From a virus, in the IMG/VR virus record IMGVR_UViG_3300045240_000053, positions 1 to 47,003 of that record: a DNA stretch of 47,003 bases. One strand, 5' to 3'. How positions within the stretch are numbered: position 1 is the first letter of the stretch; each line of letters opens with the position of its first letter. A program made the translations under genes and the position numbers. The notes below the pieces were generated by a model. The model ran no database searches. It was given only the letters and a program-made list of their open reading frames with translations, and was not told the DNA's origin. This document shows, one piece after another, positions 2,755-41,821 of the stretch.

Positions 2755-3100
2755 GCCGGTCGACCTGACCGCGCGGATCGCCGAGGCGAAGCGGCTCCAG
2801 GCCGAAGCCCAGGCCCGGCTCGACGCCGCGGCTCGTCAGTTCAGGCATCACGCCGACCAGGCGCTCGGCGTCGTCCAGGCCGACCAGCTCCGCAAGCTCG
2901 CCGCGACCGTGCCCGACTTCGAGCTGAACACGGTCAGCTTCCTGGCCGATCCGCGCTTCGCCTACAGCGCGCGCAACCTCCCGCCGTTTCCGCGGCCGTC
3001 CCGGCGCCGGCGGTTCCGGGCATGGCGCCGGGCCTGGGTCAGTCACGCTCGGCTCGTCGTCGCGAGCTGGATCCTCGGCTATGACCCCAGCGACCGATGA
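2747..3100 (+). CDS. Hypothetical helical, basic-tailed protein, 117 aa
   Basis: The ATG lies inside the end of the nuclease gene, an 8-nt overlap that indicates coupling. Residues about 8-55 are strongly helical (RIAEAKRLQAEAQARLDAA). A Pro/Arg-rich basic segment follows (PFPRPSRRRRFRAWRRAW), then a hydrophobic patch (ARLVVASWILGY). The basic patch could contact nucleic acid or the inner face of the membrane. No family is recognised. The stop overlaps a short membrane-peptide gene. Confidence 0.65.
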   Translation: MTEPVDLTARIAEAKRLQAEAQARLDAAARQFRHHADQALGVVQADQLRKLAATVPDFELNTVSFLADPRFAYSARNLPPFPRPSRRRRFRAWRRAWVSHARLVVASWILGYDPSDR

Positions 3101-3162
3101 GCTGGCTTCTGCTGGCGATCGGGGTCGTGTACGGCTGGATCCGCGGCGGCCAGCGGCGCTAG
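3097..3162 (+). CDS. 21-aa membrane micropeptide
   Basis: The ATG overlaps the preceding stop (ATGA at 3097-3100). The product is one hydrophobic helix followed by a positively charged end (MSWLLLAIGVVYGWIRGGQ then RR), the shape of a single-span membrane peptide. It ends one base before the repeated promoter element at 3164, which closes the first transcription block. The call rests on coupling and hydrophobicity only. Confidence 0.45.
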   Translation: MSWLLLAIGVVYGWIRGGQRR

Positions 3163-3163
3163 T

Positions 3164-3195
3164 CACTTGACGATCGTCCAGCGTCAAGGTACGGT
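3164..3195 (+). promoter_or_regulatory. Repeated-family promoter, copy 1, with operator-like dyad
   Basis: The -35 box is TTGACG at 3167-3172, followed by a 17-nt spacer and TACGGT at 3190-3195. The core CACTTGACGATCGTCCA is identical to the copy at 46346 and contains the perfect palindrome GACGATCGTC. In this copy CTTGACG (3166-3172) is also mirrored by CGTCAAG (3182-3188), so the -35 region lies in an inverted repeat. It faces the gene at 3236. Control by a DNA-binding protein is inferred. Confidence 0.75.
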
Positions 3196-26302: not shown

Positions 26303-26668
26303 TCAGGCCGTCTCGGCGGGCGTCTCTGCGGCGACCTCGACCGGCGTCGCGGCGGCGGTACGGGCCGCTTCCGCGGCGGCGATTTCGGCGGCCACGCGGT
26401 CCTGCTCGGCCTTCGCTTCGGCGGCCATGCGATCTCCTTCGGCCTTCGCGGCCTTCTTCTCGGCGGCGGTCGGCTCGGGTAGCTCGACGACCACGGTCGG
26501 CTGGACCTTCGTCAGCGCGTAGACGTCGGCCGCGTCCGGGATGCTCTCGTCCTTCGTGCCGTCGGCGAGGATGCCGAACTGGGCCGCGTATTCGTCGGTC
26601 AGCTCGTCGCCGGGCGTCGCGACCAGCGTCCCGTTCCGGATGATGCGCTGGGTCGAGATGACGGTCAT
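26303..26668 (-). CDS. Hypothetical protein with Ala/Glu helical tail, 121 aa
   Basis: I start at the ATG at 26668 (MTVISTQRIIRNGTLVATPG), which overlaps the previous stop (ATGA). The first 60 residues form a small beta domain. From about residue 70 a long Ala/Lys/Glu helix (AAEKKAAKAEGDRMAAEAK) runs to the end, probably a coiled coil or disordered tail. Similar proteins lie between capsid and connector in many actinophages, but the role is unsettled. Confidence 0.7.
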   Translation of the reverse strand: MTVISTQRIIRNGTLVATPGDELTDEYAAQFGILADGTKDESIPDAADVYALTKVQPTVVVELPEPTAAEKKAAKAEGDRMAAEAKAEQDRVAAEIAAAEAARTAAATPVEVAAETPAETA

Positions 26669-26931
26669 ACCAGTCCCCATTCCGCCGCTTGCGCGGGCGT
26701 GATGTAGTCCCCAGGCGTCGCCCGGAGGATGCCGCCGAAGACGACTCTCGTCGAGACTAGGACGGTCGCCTCCGGATCGCGAGCTGGCGCGCCCCACTCG
26801 GCGTACGGCAGGAACACGGCCGGGCCGCTCGTCGCGAGCCAGCTCGGCTCGCACTTGTCGCCGGTCACGCACTCGTGAAGCGGCGGCTGGCCGTAGACGT
26901 CGTGCGAGCGGCGCTCGCTGAGCAGGGTCAC
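26665..26931 (-). CDS. Hypothetical structural-region protein, 88 aa
   Basis: It is coupled to its neighbours by ATGA-type overlaps at both ends. It contains two cysteines (HECVTGDKCE) in the N-terminal third and ends with a TPGDYITPAQAAEWGLV motif. That motif resembles the TPGDELTDEYAAQFGIL segment of the next gene's N-terminus, so both may share a small domain. Function unknown. Confidence 0.65.
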   Translation of the reverse strand: MTLLSERRSHDVYGQPPLHECVTGDKCEPSWLATSGPAVFLPYAEWGAPARDPEATVLVSTRVVFGGILRATPGDYITPAQAAEWGLV

Positions 26932-27182
26932 GGGAGCACGCGCGCGACGTGAGGCGTCTCCGTGTCCTCCGGGACAGTGAGCGCGATCGCCAAGTTCCCG
27001 TACATCAGAAACGACTGGAGCCCGCGCATTGCGAGGGTCTTCTCCGGGCCGTCCGGGATGAGATCCCAGGCCGCCTCGGCCGTGCCCGCGGCCAGCTTGC
27101 GGAGGGCGTCGAAGCGCGGCGCGGTCTCCGGCGTAGCCGGGTGATAGGCGAGCTGGTCCTTCACGTCTTCGAGCGTCCGCAC
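26928..27182 (-). CDS. Acb2-like candidate cyclic-nucleotide sponge (anti-CBASS), 84 aa
   Basis: The sequence follows the pattern of the small all-helical Acb2/DUF7681 family: an N-terminal YHPAT, then APRFDALRKLA, then PDGPEKTLAMRGLQ and a C-terminal MYGNLAIAL (compare the family's YHxP..RYxxIR..A, PxSxExxLAxxxL and MxANAAIA). Acb2 proteins form hexamers that sequester cyclic di- and tri-nucleotides and block CBASS and related signalling. This is from memory of the family pattern, not a search. The gene lies in the structural operon after the capsid and HNH genes, coupled to the next gene. If correct, it would be made late. Confidence 0.6.
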   Translation of the reverse strand: MRTLEDVKDQLAYHPATPETAPRFDALRKLAAGTAEAAWDLIPDGPEKTLAMRGLQSFLMYGNLAIALTVPEDTETPHVARVLP

Positions 27183-27203
27183 GATGCGCCTCCTGGTGAG
27201 TGA

Positions 27204-27779
27204 CTAGGCGTCAGCGTAGCGCGCGAGGATCTCCCGAGCCCACGCTACGAGGTCCGGCACGCGCTGGCCCTTCGGCTGGCTCGTGACCCAGAGCTCCAGA
27301 TTCTCGTCTCGGTTGTCATCCTTCACGCCGTTCACGTGGTGAACGTTCTCGCCGGGCAGGAGCGCACGGCCGAGCCGCCGCTCCATCACGACGCGGTGCT
27401 GAGCCTGCCAACCGTTCGGCGTCTTCTCGGTCACATAGCCTTCGGCGTCCGGCCGTGCTGTACCGATCGGGAAGTTTCGCCGACCCGGACGACCGTCCTC
27501 GATCAACGAGAGGCCGTAACAGTCTTTCGAGCAAAAGACGCGCGGACGCATATCTGAGACGCGCCGATGGACCGGCGTTTTGCACGTCCAGCACTCAACG
27601 ATCTTCCAGTGAGCCTTTAGCACGCCCTTATCGACGCGAGGCGCTCGCTTCGGCTTATCGGGGTCGGCGTCACGACAGGCGAGGGAGCAATACAAACGGC
27701 CGCTCTTCGAGGCACGAAGAGCGGCCGGAGACCGAGAGAAGACTCGGGAGCATGAACTTTTCATGCTCGAATGCTTCAT
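27204..27779 (-). CDS. HNH endonuclease (homing type), 191 aa
   Basis: The C-terminal half has the HNH_3 pattern: EGYVTEKTPNGWQAQHRVVM, ERRLGRALLPGENVHHVNG, then DDNRDENLELWVTSQPKG. Two treble-clef cysteine pairs precede it (LYCSLACRD; ECWTCKTP and VFCSKDC). It is predicted to nick or cut DNA as a free-standing homing endonuclease. It lies directly downstream of the major capsid gene. The first 35 codons run through two perfect hairpins (27697-27727 and 27740-27791), so little of it may be translated from capsid transcripts. Codon use is less GC-biased than in the capsid gene, which suggests acquisition. Confidence 0.85.
   Translation of the reverse strand: MKHSSMKSSCSRVFSRSPAALRASKSGRLYCSLACRDADPDKPKRAPRVDKGVLKAHWKIVECWTCKTPVHRRVSDMRPRVFCSKDCYGLSLIEDGRPGRRNFPIGTARPDAEGYVTEKTPNGWQAQHRVVMERRLGRALLPGENVHHVNGVKDDNRDENLELWVTSQPKGQRVPDLVAWAREILARYADA
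27697..27727 (-). terminator. Rho-independent terminator within the start of the HNH gene
   Basis: A perfect 13-bp stem, CGGCCGCTCTTCG with CGAAGAGCGGCCG and a 5-nt loop. On the minus strand it is followed by TTTGTATT, the classic intrinsic terminator shape. It lies 75 nt past the capsid stop and inside the HNH reading frame. Confidence 0.75.
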
Positions 27780-27801: not shown

Positions 27802-29046
27802 CTAACTTAGCGCAACGCTGACGAAGAAGTCGGGACGGAAGACCATGAGCCCGACCCGCTTCTCCGCGAGAATCGCGATCTTGTTCGTGGTGAAGTAGTC
27901 CAGGTGCTGGTCGCCGATCCGGATCACGACGCCCTCGCGGTCGAGGATCATCGCGCCGCGGGAGTCACCGACGAGTGCCGACCCGCGGGCCATGGCGTTC
28001 GTCCGCTTGACGTTGACGCCCCAGAGCCCGGCCGGAGGCACGCCGAACGGTGCGGCGTTTGTGAGCGCCTCGCCGTCGAAGCGGGTCGCGTTGCGGGTGG
28101 TCTGGATCTGCCAGAAGTCGAGCGTGTTCATGACCTGGAAGTCGGCCTGGCCCTCGATGTTCTCCAGGACGCCCTGGGCGAGCCCGAGCGACGTCAGCGC
28201 GTCACTGGTGAACGCCTGAGTCTGGAGGCCCGTCGTGTTCAGCAGGCCGCGGATCTCCGGATCGGTGCCGGAGCCGGAGAGCAGGCCGCGGTCCTCGCGG
28301 AAGCTGACAGAGTTCTGGAGGAAGTTGTCGATCAGTCCGCGCATGAGCGGGACGTCGGCCAGGAGCTCGTACGTGGCCGGGATCCAGCCCGCGATCTTCT
28401 CGATTGTGGCGCGCGCCGGGACCCAGTTCATCGCCAGCTCGGGCTTCTGCCCGGCCTCCAGGACCCAGCCAGCTCCGGCCACGTTCGACAGGTAGCTCTG
28501 CTCCTGGATGTAGGGGACGATTGACAGCGAGGTCGACGTGCTCGGGAGGATGTCCCGCATGAACTGCATCGGCCGGATCTGGGTGACCGGCGGGATGTAG
28601 GGCGTGCCGAGCGGCGCGAGGAGCCCGGCGCCGGAGGCGCTCGGGGCCGCGATGTACGAGCCCGTGTTCGTCATGAGCGTACGAACTTCGTACTCGTAGT
28701 GGCCGCCCGAGCTCTTGCGGAACTCCACATAGCCGTCGGACCGGGTGAAGTCCTCGCCGGGCGAGTAGCTTCCGGCGCGGCTCTCGCCGAGGAGTGCGCC
28801 GCGCGGGCCGTCGCCGGGCTCGCCGAGGGTCTCGTCATACTCGGCGCGCTGGGTGACCAGGAACAGCGTGTCGAGGGCCTGGAGGTCCAGGAGGTCGCGG
28901 CGCAGAGCGTCGCGGTCGTCCTCGCTCCGGGCGTCGCCCCTCGCGATGGCGGCGTCGGTGCGCTCGGCCAGCGCAAGGAGATCTTGGCGGATCTCGGCGG
29001 CCGGGCGGCGGGTGATCGTGTCGGTGTTAGCGGTCTTGTGTGCCAT
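27802..29046 (-). CDS. HK97-fold major capsid protein, 414 aa
   Basis: I start at the ATG at 29046 after an excellent GGAGG site 11 nt upstream. Residues about 1-75 form the charged helical scaffold-like delta domain that the prohead protease usually removes (RQDLLALAERTDAAIARGDA). The mature part includes ITQIRPMQFMRDILP-like N-arm sequence, the E-loop region, and a P/A domain with KIAGWIPATYELLADVP, RGLLSGSGTDPEIRGLLNT and VVIRIGDQHLDYFTTN. The sequence ends VFRPDFFVSVALS. These features match the family. It is flanked by two HNH-type genes and followed by hairpins. Confidence 0.93.
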   Translation of the reverse strand: MAHKTANTDTITRRPAAEIRQDLLALAERTDAAIARGDARSEDDRDALRRDLLDLQALDTLFLVTQRAEYDETLGEPGDGPRGALLGESRAGSYSPGEDFTRSDGYVEFRKSSGGHYEYEVRTLMTNTGSYIAAPSASGAGLLAPLGTPYIPPVTQIRPMQFMRDILPSTSTSLSIVPYIQEQSYLSNVAGAGWVLEAGQKPELAMNWVPARATIEKIAGWIPATYELLADVPLMRGLIDNFLQNSVSFREDRGLLSGSGTDPEIRGLLNTTGLQTQAFTSDALTSLGLAQGVLENIEGQADFQVMNTLDFWQIQTTRNATRFDGEALTNAAPFGVPPAGLWGVNVKRTNAMARGSALVGDSRGAMILDREGVVIRIGDQHLDYFTTNKIAILAEKRVGLMVFRPDFFVSVALS

Positions 29047-29151
29047 GGCGGCGGCCCTCCTGGGCGCGTCGTTGGGAAGCTCGAAACGCGCGAGAGCGCG
29101 GAGCCTTGACGTGCCCGACCGCATATAGCATTCGGCTTCAGCCGATCGGAA

Positions 29152-29670
29152 CTAGGCCAGACTAGACCGTCGCTTCCGTTGATTCAAGCGCTGTTCGCCA
29201 TAGGTCGCCCAGCGGACGTTCCCCGGAGCATACGGGCCGTCATTGTCGATCCGATCGAGAGTCGAGCCAGACGGGCACGGACCCAGGTTTCCGTTGATCC
29301 AGTCGCGGAAGCCCGCATAGGCCTGCCAGCTCGGGTCGACCGTAATCCCGCGTCCGCCATACTCGGGCCATTGTCGATAGGAAGGATTTTGGCAACGCCG
29401 GAGCATGTCCTTCCAGCGGATATAGTTCGGTGTCCGGCTCTCGCCATGATGGTCCGTAGAAGCTCCGCCTGCCCGCTCTCGCTGAAGACATGAGCAAGAG
29501 CGGGTGTGACCGCCCAGGAGATCGCCGATCGCCACCAGACGCTCCTCGCCACACTCACAACGCACCCGCGCGGCGCGCTTCTCGGCGGCGTAGACCGTGA
29601 AGCCGAGCTGGACGACGGTCAGCCGCTCGAAGCGGTCGCCGACATGGATAGCGCGTGTTGGCTTAGGCAT
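29152..29670 (-). CDS. HNH-like homing endonuclease relative, 172 aa
   Basis: N-terminal module: VGDRFERLTVVQLGF plus a CECGEERLVAIGDLLGG and SCSCL zinc-type segment, common in mobile phage endonucleases as a DNA-reading domain. C-terminal module: YIRWKDMLRRCQNP, YGGRGITVDPSW, and LDRIDNDGPYAPGNVRW, an HNH-like fold in which the usual first His is replaced by an Asp-containing motif. It sits just before the major capsid gene with lower-GC codons than its neighbours. The inferred role is a selfish endonuclease that spreads into related phages lacking it. Confidence 0.8.
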   Translation of the reverse strand: MPKPTRAIHVGDRFERLTVVQLGFTVYAAEKRAARVRCECGEERLVAIGDLLGGHTRSCSCLQRERAGGASTDHHGESRTPNYIRWKDMLRRCQNPSYRQWPEYGGRGITVDPSWQAYAGFRDWINGNLGPCPSGSTLDRIDNDGPYAPGNVRWATYGEQRLNQRKRRSSLA

Positions 29671-34855: not shown

Positions 34856-35578
34856 TCAGCCCTTCGTCAGCGAGTAACGGAGTCGACAGCGGCAGTTGGC
34901 GGCCAGCTCCGGCGGTGCCAGCGTATCGCCCGGCCAGCGCATCGGCACGCCCGCCACGTCGAACGGCTCGCCGAGCGGGCGCTTCTGGCCCTCGACGGCG
35001 GCGTGAGCCGGGCGCACCTTCGCGTCGCCGCGGGTCTTCCAGGTCCGCGCTATCGCGTACGGCGTGTGGTCTTCGACCTGGACCGCCGCCGAGATCGCGG
35101 CCTCGCGCGCAGCGTTCTGGGTGAACGTCGCGGCCTGGATCGAGACGCCGACGGCCCAGCGCTTCAGCATGTCCAGGCGCTCCTGGCGAACGACGAGCCG
35201 CTCGCGGGCGCTGGCGGCCGCGGCGAGGGCGTGCCGGGCCTGGGCGGCCTCGTACGCGGCGCCGGAGCCGACCAGCTTCGCCACGCTCGCGACGATCCCG
35301 GCAGTGTCAAGCGCCGTGCCCGCGGCCTTCAGGCCGAGGTCGGCGACGGCCTTACCGGCGGCCAGCGTGGCCGCTCCGGCGATGATCGGCAGGAGCACGG
35401 CGGCGACCTGGGCCGTCTTGTGCTTCTCGTCGGCCTGCCGGCTCGGGTCGACCGACTGGTCGGCTCGGGTCGAGCCGGCGCCGAGCCAGCCCTCTAGGAG
35501 CGGGTCGAGCGCCGCGGCGATGGCGTGCTCCAGCCGTTCGAGGTCGATGTCGTTCGTCTCGGAAGTACCAGACCTCAC
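34856..35578 (-). CDS. MuF-like minor capsid protein, 240 aa
   Basis: I start at the GTG at 35578, which overlaps the protease stop (GTGA). The C-terminal 60 residues have the MuF_C signature: ARTWKTRGDAKVRPAHAAVEG, PFDVAGVPMRWPGD, and ANCRCRLRY with the conserved Cys pair. The N-terminal part is helical with an Ala-rich hydrophobic stretch (VLLPIIAGAATLAAGKAVAD). MuF proteins sit inside the head near the portal and may be ejected with DNA. Some carry toxins, but none is visible here. Confidence 0.85.
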   Translation of the reverse strand: MRSGTSETNDIDLERLEHAIAAALDPLLEGWLGAGSTRADQSVDPSRQADEKHKTAQVAAVLLPIIAGAATLAAGKAVADLGLKAAGTALDTAGIVASVAKLVGSGAAYEAAQARHALAAAASARERLVVRQERLDMLKRWAVGVSIQAATFTQNAAREAAISAAVQVEDHTPYAIARTWKTRGDAKVRPAHAAVEGQKRPLGEPFDVAGVPMRWPGDTLAPPELAANCRCRLRYSLTKG

Positions 35579-36594
35579 GTCGGAGAAGGCTCCGTCTCGG
35601 GCTCGCGGTCCGAGCGCCCGCCGGACTCGCCGGGCACGTGGCCGGGTCGCGCGCCGGTCGCGAGAACGTGGAGGTTCGCACAGTAGCCCTTCAGCTCCTT
35701 GGCCGGGACGTACTTGCCCAGCTCGGCCTCGCAACGCGCGAAGTCGCCGTCGGTGCCCCAGCCGATCTTCGGAGCGCCCTTGCCCTTCGTCCAGTAGGTC
35801 TTCAGGTGAGCCGAGCTGGCCGCGCCCGTGCCGACGGCTCGGTACTCGCTCATGCCGATCAGCTTGTCGGCGCGCATGAGGAGCCAAGCGTCCTCGACGT
35901 CGGCACGGGTCAGCTCGGTCGGCTCGATCAGCTCGGGGGAAGTCGAGCTGATCGCCTCGTCGTCAGCCTCGCCGTTGCGGGTCTCGATCGCTTCCAGCGC
36001 GTCGCGGAGCGTGATCGTCTTCGCGGCGAGCTTCGTCAGGAGATCCGCGGCCGTGACCTTCAGGATCGCCGCGCCGTCGGCCGAGCGCACGGAGAGCACG
36101 CCCGCGCCGGGCACCGCGCCGACCAGGACCGGGGACACTTCGTCGAGCCGGGCGCGGGTCATCCGCTCGCGCTCGCCCTCGATCTTCGCCGCGGCGGCGC
36201 GCGTGTCGGACCAGCCGCCGGGCTGACGCTTGAAGCCGAAGCTCGTATCGCGCAAATGACCGTCGCGAATCAGGCTCCAGGCCATCTTCGCGTCGGGAAC
36301 CTCGTCGATGTTCGCGAACTGGACCAGCCCGTCGAGCCCGTCGGCGCGCTCCGTGTGCTCCTTCAGCGAGCCGATGATCCGCTCCCAGTTGTGCGCGTAC
36401 GCCGCCGCCGGGCGCGGGTTCGAGCGAAGCGAGTCGGAGAAGACGCCGGGTTCCCAGACCGAGCCGTAGGAATCGGCCCGTTTCATCGGACCGCCGGAGT
36501 AGTTCACGATCCGGAGCGAGAAGGTGTGATCGCCAGGATTGACCTCCTGGATCTGCCCCAGGGCGGCCTCGGCGCGGTACTCAAGGGTCGTCAT
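35575..36594 (-). CDS. HK97-family prohead protease with C-terminal extension, 339 aa
   Basis: The catalytic triad is recognisable and matches HK97 gp4 spacing: H68 in AHNWERIIG, S118 in DTSFGFKRQ, and E152 in LDEVSPVLVG. It cleaves the capsid delta domain and scaffold during maturation. After residue 200 is an extension with an acidic linker. A small domain (YWTKGKGAPKIGWGTDGDF, ARCEAELGKYV, KGYCANLH) follows, of a type often attached to phage head proteins. Its role is unknown. The start overlaps the portal stop (ATGA). Confidence 0.9.
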   Translation of the reverse strand: MTTLEYRAEAALGQIQEVNPGDHTFSLRIVNYSGGPMKRADSYGSVWEPGVFSDSLRSNPRPAAAYAHNWERIIGSLKEHTERADGLDGLVQFANIDEVPDAKMAWSLIRDGHLRDTSFGFKRQPGGWSDTRAAAAKIEGERERMTRARLDEVSPVLVGAVPGAGVLSVRSADGAAILKVTAADLLTKLAAKTITLRDALEAIETRNGEADDEAISSTSPELIEPTELTRADVEDAWLLMRADKLIGMSEYRAVGTGAASSAHLKTYWTKGKGAPKIGWGTDGDFARCEAELGKYVPAKELKGYCANLHVLATGARPGHVPGESGGRSDREPETEPSPT

Positions 36595-39144: not shown

Positions 39145-40563
39145 TCAGTCTGGGGAGATCGTACGCTCACGGCGCTGGGTTAGGTCCGTAACTGCCCACA
39201 CTAGTGCGTCCAGCCTGTCCGGGCTCTCCGGCGAGGCCGGGATCGCAACCGAGATCCCGGTCCGCTCATCGACCTCGAACTGGCCCGGCGGGACCCAGGT
39301 GACCATCTGGCTCTCCAGGTCGCCCAGCCAGCCGACATGATGCGCCATCCGGCGCTCGTAGAGGTTCACGATCGGCTCGGCCCGGATCGCCTTGCCTCGC
39401 GAGGCCGTCACGGCGCGGACGTGGACTCCGGCGTCACGGTTGCGGAGCGTGGAGATCACCATATCGCCGCCGAAGTTCTTCTCGACGACGATCGCGTCGG
39501 CCTTGTGCCGATGATAGGCCCGCACGGCGACGTCGGCCCATTGCTCGGGCGAGTAGCGGCGCGAGAGATCCTCCAGCGGGTAGACGTGCCCGTTCAGCAG
39601 GCCGACTGGGACGATGCCGGTCTCGTCGCTGGTCTTGCGGTGTGAGCCCGCCGGGTCGACGCCGATCACGATTCGGTCGAAGGCTCCAGGAGCGGCCGAG
39701 GCGCGGTCGCGGTCGATGTCGTCCTGGGTCCAGAGCGCGCCGAGCGTGTCCTCCAGGAGCAGGCCCATGAGCTCCTGCTGGCCGAGCGTCGTACCTTCGT
39801 ACCGGAGCCGGAGCCGGGCGAGCATCGCGGCCGGGAGGTTCTCCGCGTTGCTCATCGTCGAGCCGCGGGTGACGACCGTGCCGCTCTCCGGGTCCTCGTC
39901 CTCCTTGAGCAGGCGCTTGATAATCGGGATCTTGCGCGGCGTCGTCGTGACGACGATCCGCGGGTCGTCGCCGAGCCGGAGCGCGAATTCGAGCATGTCC
40001 CAGGCGACGTCCCCGTACTGCTGGGTTCCGAGCTCCTCGAACCAGGCGGTCCCGCATTGCCAGCCGCGGAGGCTCTCGGCGTCCTTGCGGTCGTGCGTGC
40101 CGAAGATCTTCAACATCGACCCGTTCGTGAGTACGAGCTCGCCGATGCTCCGGTTCCAGATCTTGATTCGGTTCCACGGGATCGCGCCCTCGTCCTCGAC
40201 CATGCCACGGAGGCCGGACTCGCCCTCGACGCAGATGTCGCGGCCGTCGCCGAACGTCGGCACGATGCACGCTACGCGGTGACCTGGGTCTTCGAGCATC
40301 CGCTTCTTCACGTACTCGGCGCCCGTGCGCGTCTTGCCGAAGCCGCGGCCCGTGATGAGCGCCCAGACGTACCAGCTCGGGATCGGCGGAAGCTGCTCGG
40401 CGCGAGCGTGCCGGAACGGGATAAGGACCTTCGTGCCGGGCAGGCGATGACCGGGACGGCCGTCGCATCCGGGCACGCCGCACGACCAGACGAAGCGGAG
40501 CGCGTGCTTGAGCTTCGCTAGCTTGCGGAGCTGGTCGATCTTCTCGGCCTGGGTCGCCGTCAC
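39145..40563 (-). CDS. Terminase large subunit (ATPase-nuclease), 472 aa
   Basis: Walker A is TGRGFGKT (residues 71-78), Walker B is AWFEE (173-177), and VVTTTPRK is the coupling motif (about 205-211). The RNase-H-like nuclease has D303 in IGVDPAG, E314 in the DETGIVPVG strand, and a C-terminal D in RLDALVWAVTDL (about 455). It pumps DNA into the prohead and cuts the concatemer. The N-terminus contains a Cys pair (SCGVPGCDG), a common actinophage feature. The GTG start overlaps the previous stop. Confidence 0.95.
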   Translation of the reverse strand: MTATQAEKIDQLRKLAKLKHALRFVWSCGVPGCDGRPGHRLPGTKVLIPFRHARAEQLPPIPSWYVWALITGRGFGKTRTGAEYVKKRMLEDPGHRVACIVPTFGDGRDICVEGESGLRGMVEDEGAIPWNRIKIWNRSIGELVLTNGSMLKIFGTHDRKDAESLRGWQCGTAWFEELGTQQYGDVAWDMLEFALRLGDDPRIVVTTTPRKIPIIKRLLKEDEDPESGTVVTRGSTMSNAENLPAAMLARLRLRYEGTTLGQQELMGLLLEDTLGALWTQDDIDRDRASAAPGAFDRIVIGVDPAGSHRKTSDETGIVPVGLLNGHVYPLEDLSRRYSPEQWADVAVRAYHRHKADAIVVEKNFGGDMVISTLRNRDAGVHVRAVTASRGKAIRAEPIVNLYERRMAHHVGWLGDLESQMVTWVPPGQFEVDERTGISVAIPASPESPDRLDALVWAVTDLTQRRERTISPD

Positions 40564-40936: not shown

Positions 40937-41265
40937 AGCCCAGGTCGCGCCGGAGCGCGTTCGCCTGGCGCCGGACGTAGGACCTGGTGAGGCTCCTCCA
41001 GGACCACGGTCGGCGCGGTCGTCACGACGGCGACACGCTTCGGCCCGACACCGTTCGCGGTCAGGCGAGCGTTGATCCGATGCTTCAGGACCTCGCCGAG
41101 GATCGGGCCCTTCAGGTCCGTGCGAACCTTCAACGTCACGCCGTCGTCGCCGACGACCAGCTTCGCGTTACCGCTCTCGATCAGGCGCAGCGTGAGGTCC
41201 ATCTCGCCGTCGGTGGCGCGGGCCTCGGACAGCTCGTCAGGCGTCGGCGGTCGTGTTGCTTCCAT
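40933..41265 (-). CDS. Hypothetical protein, 110 aa
   Basis: The ATG at 41265 begins 29 nt inside the TerS-like gene. The middle is beta-like (NAKLVVGDDGVTLKVRTDL, RVAVVTTAPTVVL), and the end is Arg/Pro-rich (APGERAPARPG). It lies between TerS-like and small packaging-region genes. No family is recognised. Confidence 0.65.
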   Translation of the reverse strand: MEATRPPTPDELSEARATDGEMDLTLRLIESGNAKLVVGDDGVTLKVRTDLKGPILGEVLKHRINARLTANGVGPKRVAVVTTAPTVVLEEPHQVLRPAPGERAPARPGL

Positions 41266-41821
41266 CGAGTGCTCCTTCGTCCCCTAGGCTCGCCTCGGCG
41301 GTCGCCGGGCTCGTGTCGTTCAGTCCGAGCTCGGTGGCGAGCTTCGTCAGCTCGTCGTCGATCGACCCGGTGTGCTCCAGCTTGACGTCCATCTGAATCA
41401 GGACCGGGCGATCGGCCCCCTGGAGCTTGGCCAGCCGATCCTCGATCTTCACGAGCGCCTCGGCGAACTTCGGCGAGTGCTCGATCTTTCCGCGCCCGGC
41501 AGGGTTGGCCGGGTCAGCAGACGTCTGGAGGAGGCCCCAGTCGGTCAGGAGCTTGCGCCGTGCCGTTTCGAGTGTTCGCTGGCTCATATCCCGGAACGTC
41601 TCGGCTCCAGGCGAAAGGACCAGGGATCGAGCCTCTTCGATCCGATTCTCGACCGTACCGACCGAAACGCCGAGCTCCTTCGCGATCTCGTACGTCGAGT
41701 AGCCCGCGCATCGGCGATCGAATACCAGGACGGCCTCAGCGTCTCGCTGGCTCTTGTTCCTCCGCTTGCGCCGTGGAGGCTCCTGGACCTCGATCGTGCC
41801 CGTATGCGCGTCGTCGCTCAA
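41237..41821 (-). CDS. Terminase small subunit-like HTH protein, 194 aa
   Basis: A helix-turn-helix is visible at about residues 40-67 (AGYSTYEIAKELGVSVGTV, then ENRIEEARS), typical of TerS and sigma-region-4-like DNA readers. The start is basic (PPRRKRRNKSQRDAEA). A long helical region of about residues 70-165 (DMSQRTLETARRKLLTDWG, FAEALVKIEDRLAKLQG) could form the oligomer, and the tail is acidic. TerS proteins select the packaging site and activate TerL. Position upstream of TerL and size support this over an ordinary transcription factor. Confidence 0.7.
   Translation of the reverse strand: MSDDAHTGTIEVQEPPRRKRRNKSQRDAEAVLVFDRRCAGYSTYEIAKELGVSVGTVENRIEEARSLVLSPGAETFRDMSQRTLETARRKLLTDWGLLQTSADPANPAGRGKIEHSPKFAEALVKIEDRLAKLQGADRPVLIQMDVKLEHTGSIDDELTKLATELGLNDTSPATAEASLGDEGALDGSNTTADA

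Follow-up and report, generated by a model that had tools for sequence, protein, structure and literature searches.

In the window analysed here, which comprises the entire virus record IMGVR_UViG_3300045240_000053 (47,003 bases), a gene for an 84-residue protein of the Acb2/Tad1 hairpin family lies on the minus strand at positions 26928-27182, with a GTG start at 27182 and a TGA stop at 26928. A first-pass annotation had read the encoded protein (MRTLEDVKDQLAYHPATPETAPRFDALRKLAAGTAEAAWDLIPDGPEKTLAMRGLQSFLMYGNLAIALTVPEDTETPHVARVLP) as an Acb2-like sponge directed against the cyclic oligonucleotide-based antiphage signalling system (CBASS), recognised from four short motifs. The reading frame and all four motifs are present as described (YHPAT at residues 13-17, APRFDALR at 21-28, PEKTLAMR at 46-53, and MYGNLAIA at 60-67), on a strand that had been left unstated. 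A Shine-Dalgarno-like AGGAGG (27189-27194, minus strand) stands upstream of the GTG start in the context CACCAGGAGGCGCATC-GTG, and the codon-position guanine-cytosine (GC) content of the gene, 0.72/0.48/0.89, matches that of the capsid, portal, and tape-measure genes. In the antisense open reading frame (ORF) at 26949-27203, the GC pattern is mirror-imaged, as would be seen for a shadow ORF. The overlap with a neighbour that had been claimed was also found, the stop of the gene falling on the GTG start of an 88-residue gene downstream within a four-nucleotide GTGA (26928-26931, minus strand), which suggests translational coupling of the two genes.

The hairpin family is already recognised and named in Pfam and UniProt, and the protein matches its Pfam model, PF24729 (Acb2/Tad1 hairpin), at 27.3 bits against a gathering cut-off of 27.0 (E 4.3e-6), with residues 12-67 aligned to positions 1-57 of the 58-position profile; a match to phrog_1454 was also obtained (E 2.5e-7). 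Searches with the single protein were uninformative, phmmer against PDB sequences returning chance matches only and a viral scan yielding no confirmed relative. An initial tblastn search recovered 59 phage records, about 25-35% identical; nine of these relatives were aligned with the window protein, and this alignment led to the best 80 of 177 confirmed viral loci, the highest local identity to any relative being at most about 42%. A hidden Markov model (HMM) built from 57 relatives, with the window protein excluded, scored it at 61 bits as the sole match among 839 ORFs of the window, while the best of 5,000 shuffled sequences reached 11 bits. The 57 relatives had been picked by similarity to the window ORF, so that this score is inflated; the PF24729 match is independent of that choice. 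Each of the 58 aligned proteins has PF24729 as its sole match, and neither PADLOC nor NCBIfam holds a model for the hairpin protein. The marginal Pfam score might be taken to favour a spurious ORF or a chance resemblance. Such an explanation is extremely improbable, given the margin over the shuffled sequences, the single match in the window, the codon-position GC pattern, and the Shine-Dalgarno sequence, and by the profile result it is effectively refuted. Membership in the hairpin family is thus firm by Pfam, profile, and predicted fold.

The AlphaFold model, computed from 58 sequences, has a mean predicted local distance difference test (pLDDT) score of 87.8, with helices at residues 4-11, 21-41, and 46-69; the two long antiparallel helices (21-41 and 46-69) reach block values of 93-98. 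The earlier description of an all-helical protein therefore holds for residues 4-69, but not for the C-terminal 15 or so residues, which are modelled as a low-confidence coil or disordered tail. Acb2 consists of one short N-terminal and two long antiparallel helices (PMC10419184), a topology that the predicted model shares. When the model was compared with 350,542 PDB chains by Foldseek, the T4 Acb2 protein Vs.4 with cyclic GMP-AMP (cGAMP) took ranks 1 and 2 and the Acb2 structure 8H2X took rank 5; the E values of 0.66, 1.4, and 3.2 are not significant, the template modelling (TM) scores being 0.45-0.57 (0.45-0.54 for T4 Vs.4) for a small helical fold. The structural comparison with Acb2 that had been proposed as a check thus returned the expected topology and leading match without statistical significance. 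For a typical family member (locus L039, model pLDDT 96.5), T4 Vs.4 again ranked first and second, at a probability of 0.97-0.98 and TM scores of 0.68-0.71, followed by Tad1 at ranks 3 and 4. In the viral library BFVD, the top eleven matches were all named Acb2/Tad1 hairpin proteins.

Sequence comparison places the window protein, in all likelihood, outside the canonical Acb2 clade of T4 Vs.4 and PaP2 p26 and within a broad sister clade. The family relationship implied by the label Acb2-like was thus upheld, whereas membership in Acb2 proper is not established. When the family profile was run against PDB sequences, the best match among solved structures was 9PTQ, "Acb2 homolog 43" (76 residues, six chains; E 2.4e-8), covering the hairpin; Tad1 followed at about 0.01, and T4 Vs.4, at 0.93, lay below direct sequence detection. 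A strong T4 Vs.4 match obtained from an alignment that itself contained T4 Vs.4 was discarded as circular. 9PTQ was not among the matches of the Foldseek search of PDB chains. Profile-profile alignment by hhalign related the family to canonical Acb2 (T4 Vs.4, 7UQ2; PaP2 p26, 8H2J/8H2X) at 94.4% probability (E 8.6e-8, 61 columns). The gapless start of this alignment sets Y13 on Y8 of T4 and Y11 of PaP2, and R28 on K23 of T4 and K26 of PaP2, the last of which is taken here to be a dinucleotide-contact residue. The window protein thus has the predicted topology and the Y13/R28 pair in common with canonical Acb2. Among the residues that eight canonical Acb2 proteins share without exception, the window protein keeps Y11 and M81 (PaP2 numbering) and has Arg for K26; G10, N23, and R85 are replaced by A12, D25, and L64, respectively, P90 is without a clear counterpart, and the canonical GY motif is absent.

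For the family and Tad1, the same procedure gave 95.3% (E 2.4e-8) in an alignment spanning 26 helix-3 columns, where the motif of Tad1 (SBSphiJ7; 7UAV/7UAW, 8KBB-8KBH), RENAMAITKLEEALMWLNK, resembles that of the family, REKSLAITKLEEAMMWANA. By these alignments, the second long helix of the sister clade is no less similar to its counterpart in Tad1 than to that in Acb2. A Tad1 architecture was nevertheless rejected for the window protein, since Tad1, at about 120-142 residues, carries an N-terminal antiparallel beta-sheet domain, for which the window frame, open for at most 91 codons, leaves no space. Closest in length class and in their three predicted helices are the PF24729 proteins of actinophages and Firmicutes phages (phrog_1454), such as Gordonia phage Octobien14 gp100 and gp43 and gp101 of Mycobacterium phages Pharaoh and Xandras, respectively. 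These relatives share about 25-42% identity with the window protein, which differs from them in its 15-residue disordered tail.

The residues H14, R28, A35, P43, and N63 are invariant in 58 relatives, and all five are kept in the window protein, as are E47 and K48 of the family motif. Of the 58, 57 have Tyr or Phe at position 13, and an aromatic/basic pair 15 residues apart is thereby conserved in the window protein (Y13 to R28; codons at 27099-27146, minus strand). In T4 Acb2, the substitution Y8A disrupts dinucleotide binding (PMC12657218). Given these features, the explanation favoured, with moderate confidence and largely by analogy, is that of a divergent short hairpin protein, hexameric as Acb2 is, which would sequester host cyclic oligonucleotides against CBASS-type effectors. 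The short N-terminal helix and the two-helix hairpin would assemble into a homohexamer, the pockets of which, lined by Y13 and R28, would hold cyclic oligonucleotides non-covalently, and a CBASS-type (or other cyclic-nucleotide) effector would be starved of its signal during infection. Synthesis of the protein would be late, at the same time as that of the capsid and connector proteins.

Several points weigh against this explanation. Beyond a Pfam score only 0.3 bits over the cut-off and the non-significant Foldseek E values, residues that are near-invariant in the family are altered, namely F11L and, in helix 3 (residues 46-68, PEKTLAMRGLQSFLMYGNLAIAL; codons at 26979-27047, minus strand), R46P, T53R, E56Q, E57S, W61Y, A64L, and R68L relative to the family motif REKSLAxTxLEExMWANAAIAR. 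The T53 position, occupied by Arg in the window protein as well as in three other relatives, aligns with T68 of T4 Acb2, and the substitution T68M reduces the affinity of the T4 protein (PMC12657230). The ligand-stacking F82 of T4 Acb2 corresponds to A67, Ala being found likewise in the family and in PaP2 Acb2, and the canonical invariant R85 is the Leu at position 64. A literature search found neither a paper for 9PTQ nor a binding assay for any member of the sister clade. Because near-invariant residues of its own clade are altered, cyclic-nucleotide binding by the window protein cannot be assumed; judged from its sequence, retained binding is probable but unproven.

The pattern of kept residues (H14, R28, P43, E47, K48, and N63) and changed ones (R46, T53, E56/E57, W61, and R68) could also be that of a family member with a changed pocket, binding not the ordinary CBASS signals but another nucleotide-derived one that differs in ring size or base or is an ADP-ribose (ADPR) derivative made by a Toll/interleukin-1 receptor (TIR) enzyme. 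The alignment of the helix-3 motif with Tad1 would fit such a role, Tad1 being known to sequester gcADPR and cyclic oligonucleotides (PMC12043709). The changes at R46, T53, and R68, however, are found in other relatives and may be neutral drift, and this alternative is regarded as unlikely. More speculative, and given little credence, is the proposal that a late-expressed sponge with an altered helix 3 and Arg at the T68 position sequesters a signal outside the range described for Acb2 and Tad1.

The genomic setting bears on a further alternative. The placement in a structural operon that had been claimed was corroborated, the gene lying in a run of same-strand genes, with those for capsid and HNH on one side and those of the head-tail connector on the other. 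This run on the minus strand proceeds from the terminase (39145-40563) through portal, protease, head morphogenesis, and capsid genes to the hairpin gene, and continues past it with the head-tail adaptor, neck, tail terminator, major tail protein, and tape measure genes. The hairpin protein might, in such company, be a degenerate or repurposed form that does not bind nucleotides and is retained through its operon position, for example, as a small accessory protein in the assembly of the head or connector. Its long-branch sequence, at most about 42% identical in local matches, the loss of several near-invariant polar residues, and the tight coupling to small head-module genes would suit this idea, which is nonetheless judged improbable: the ORF is intact, with a good codon signal and a Shine-Dalgarno sequence, and all five columns invariant in the 58 relatives are kept. 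A structural role also sits poorly with a family whose genes stand beside those for thymidylate synthase, tRNAs, lysis proteins, terminase, and portal.

In other phages, relatives adjoin thymidylate synthase and ribonucleotide reductase genes, tRNAs, or lysis genes, and others lie at the left end or immediately ahead of the terminase. In a phage distantly related to that of the window (L038), the relative lies shortly after the terminase and before the head genes; in Gordonia phage ChisanaKitsune, the hairpin gene directly follows the portal gene; in cyanophage S-2L, it is among the tail genes; and in Vibrio phage D60, a canonical Acb2 follows the portal gene. Placement in the structural module is therefore ordinary, because canonical Acb2 and other relatives also occur in late or structural modules, and an accessory rather than structural role is favoured for the hairpin gene because it is mobile among unrelated genome positions. 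A function as a structural protein was accordingly thought unlikely, the family being spread over many such positions. After the hairpin gene, ChisanaKitsune (L221, 4001-8198) carries an RNA ligase and a gene whose annotation reads VIP2-like ADP-ribosyltransferase. The S-2L relative (L222, about 3001-3189) is without an annotated gene of its own and overlaps the start of a tail assembly gene. In GenBank, members at L009 (2992-3198) and in several Paenibacillus phage records are labelled "putative phosphomannomutase", which is evidently wrong for proteins of about 68 residues.

Among the neighbours in the window, all on the minus strand, the 88-residue gene downstream (26665-26931) encodes a product with no Pfam or PHROG match, and an ATGA overlap joins it to the gene after it. 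The C-terminus of the 88-residue protein is paralogous to the N-terminus of the product of that next gene (121 residues, 26303-26668), the two sharing the pattern ATPGDxxTxxxAxxxG at 42% identity over 33 residues (E 6e-8). For the latter gene, the start at 26668 suits better than the 189-residue ORF call. Upstream of the hairpin gene lies an HNH endonuclease gene (191 residues, 27204-27779), followed by that of the major capsid protein (440 residues, 27802-29124), both assigned by Pfam and PHROG, and the capsid gene is bracketed by a second HNH endonuclease gene at 29152-29670. The head protease (35578-36594) has a C-terminal domain, phrog_6439, which adjoins an Acb2-hairpin gene at three other loci (L118, L158, and L159), and a 194-residue protein with a sigma-70 region 4 domain is encoded near the terminase (41240-41821). 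A scan with the capsid protein for close relatives of the window phage found none.

With regard to the literature, the search found no paper using the name DUF7681, the label given in the first-pass annotation. Among published phage annotations, the hairpin family is represented by gp101 of the cluster E mycobacteriophage Xandras, annotated as a cyclic oligonucleotide sequestering protein (PMC11953737), which accords with the favoured explanation. A putative Acb2 has also been published for Microbacterium phage Statler (PMC13348362). Against the family HMM, Xandras gp101 scores 74 bits.

For the present, the main outcome is that an already known family is confirmed in one further uncultured phage. 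Whether nucleotide-signalling defences such as CBASS succeed depends on phage sponges, which can also set off the Panoptes decoy system. Genes of the clade are present in hundreds of actinophage and Firmicutes phage records, mostly as "hypothetical" and in some cases wrongly as "phosphomannomutase", and the residues that set signal specificity could usefully be tested with a divergent member in which helix 3 is altered.
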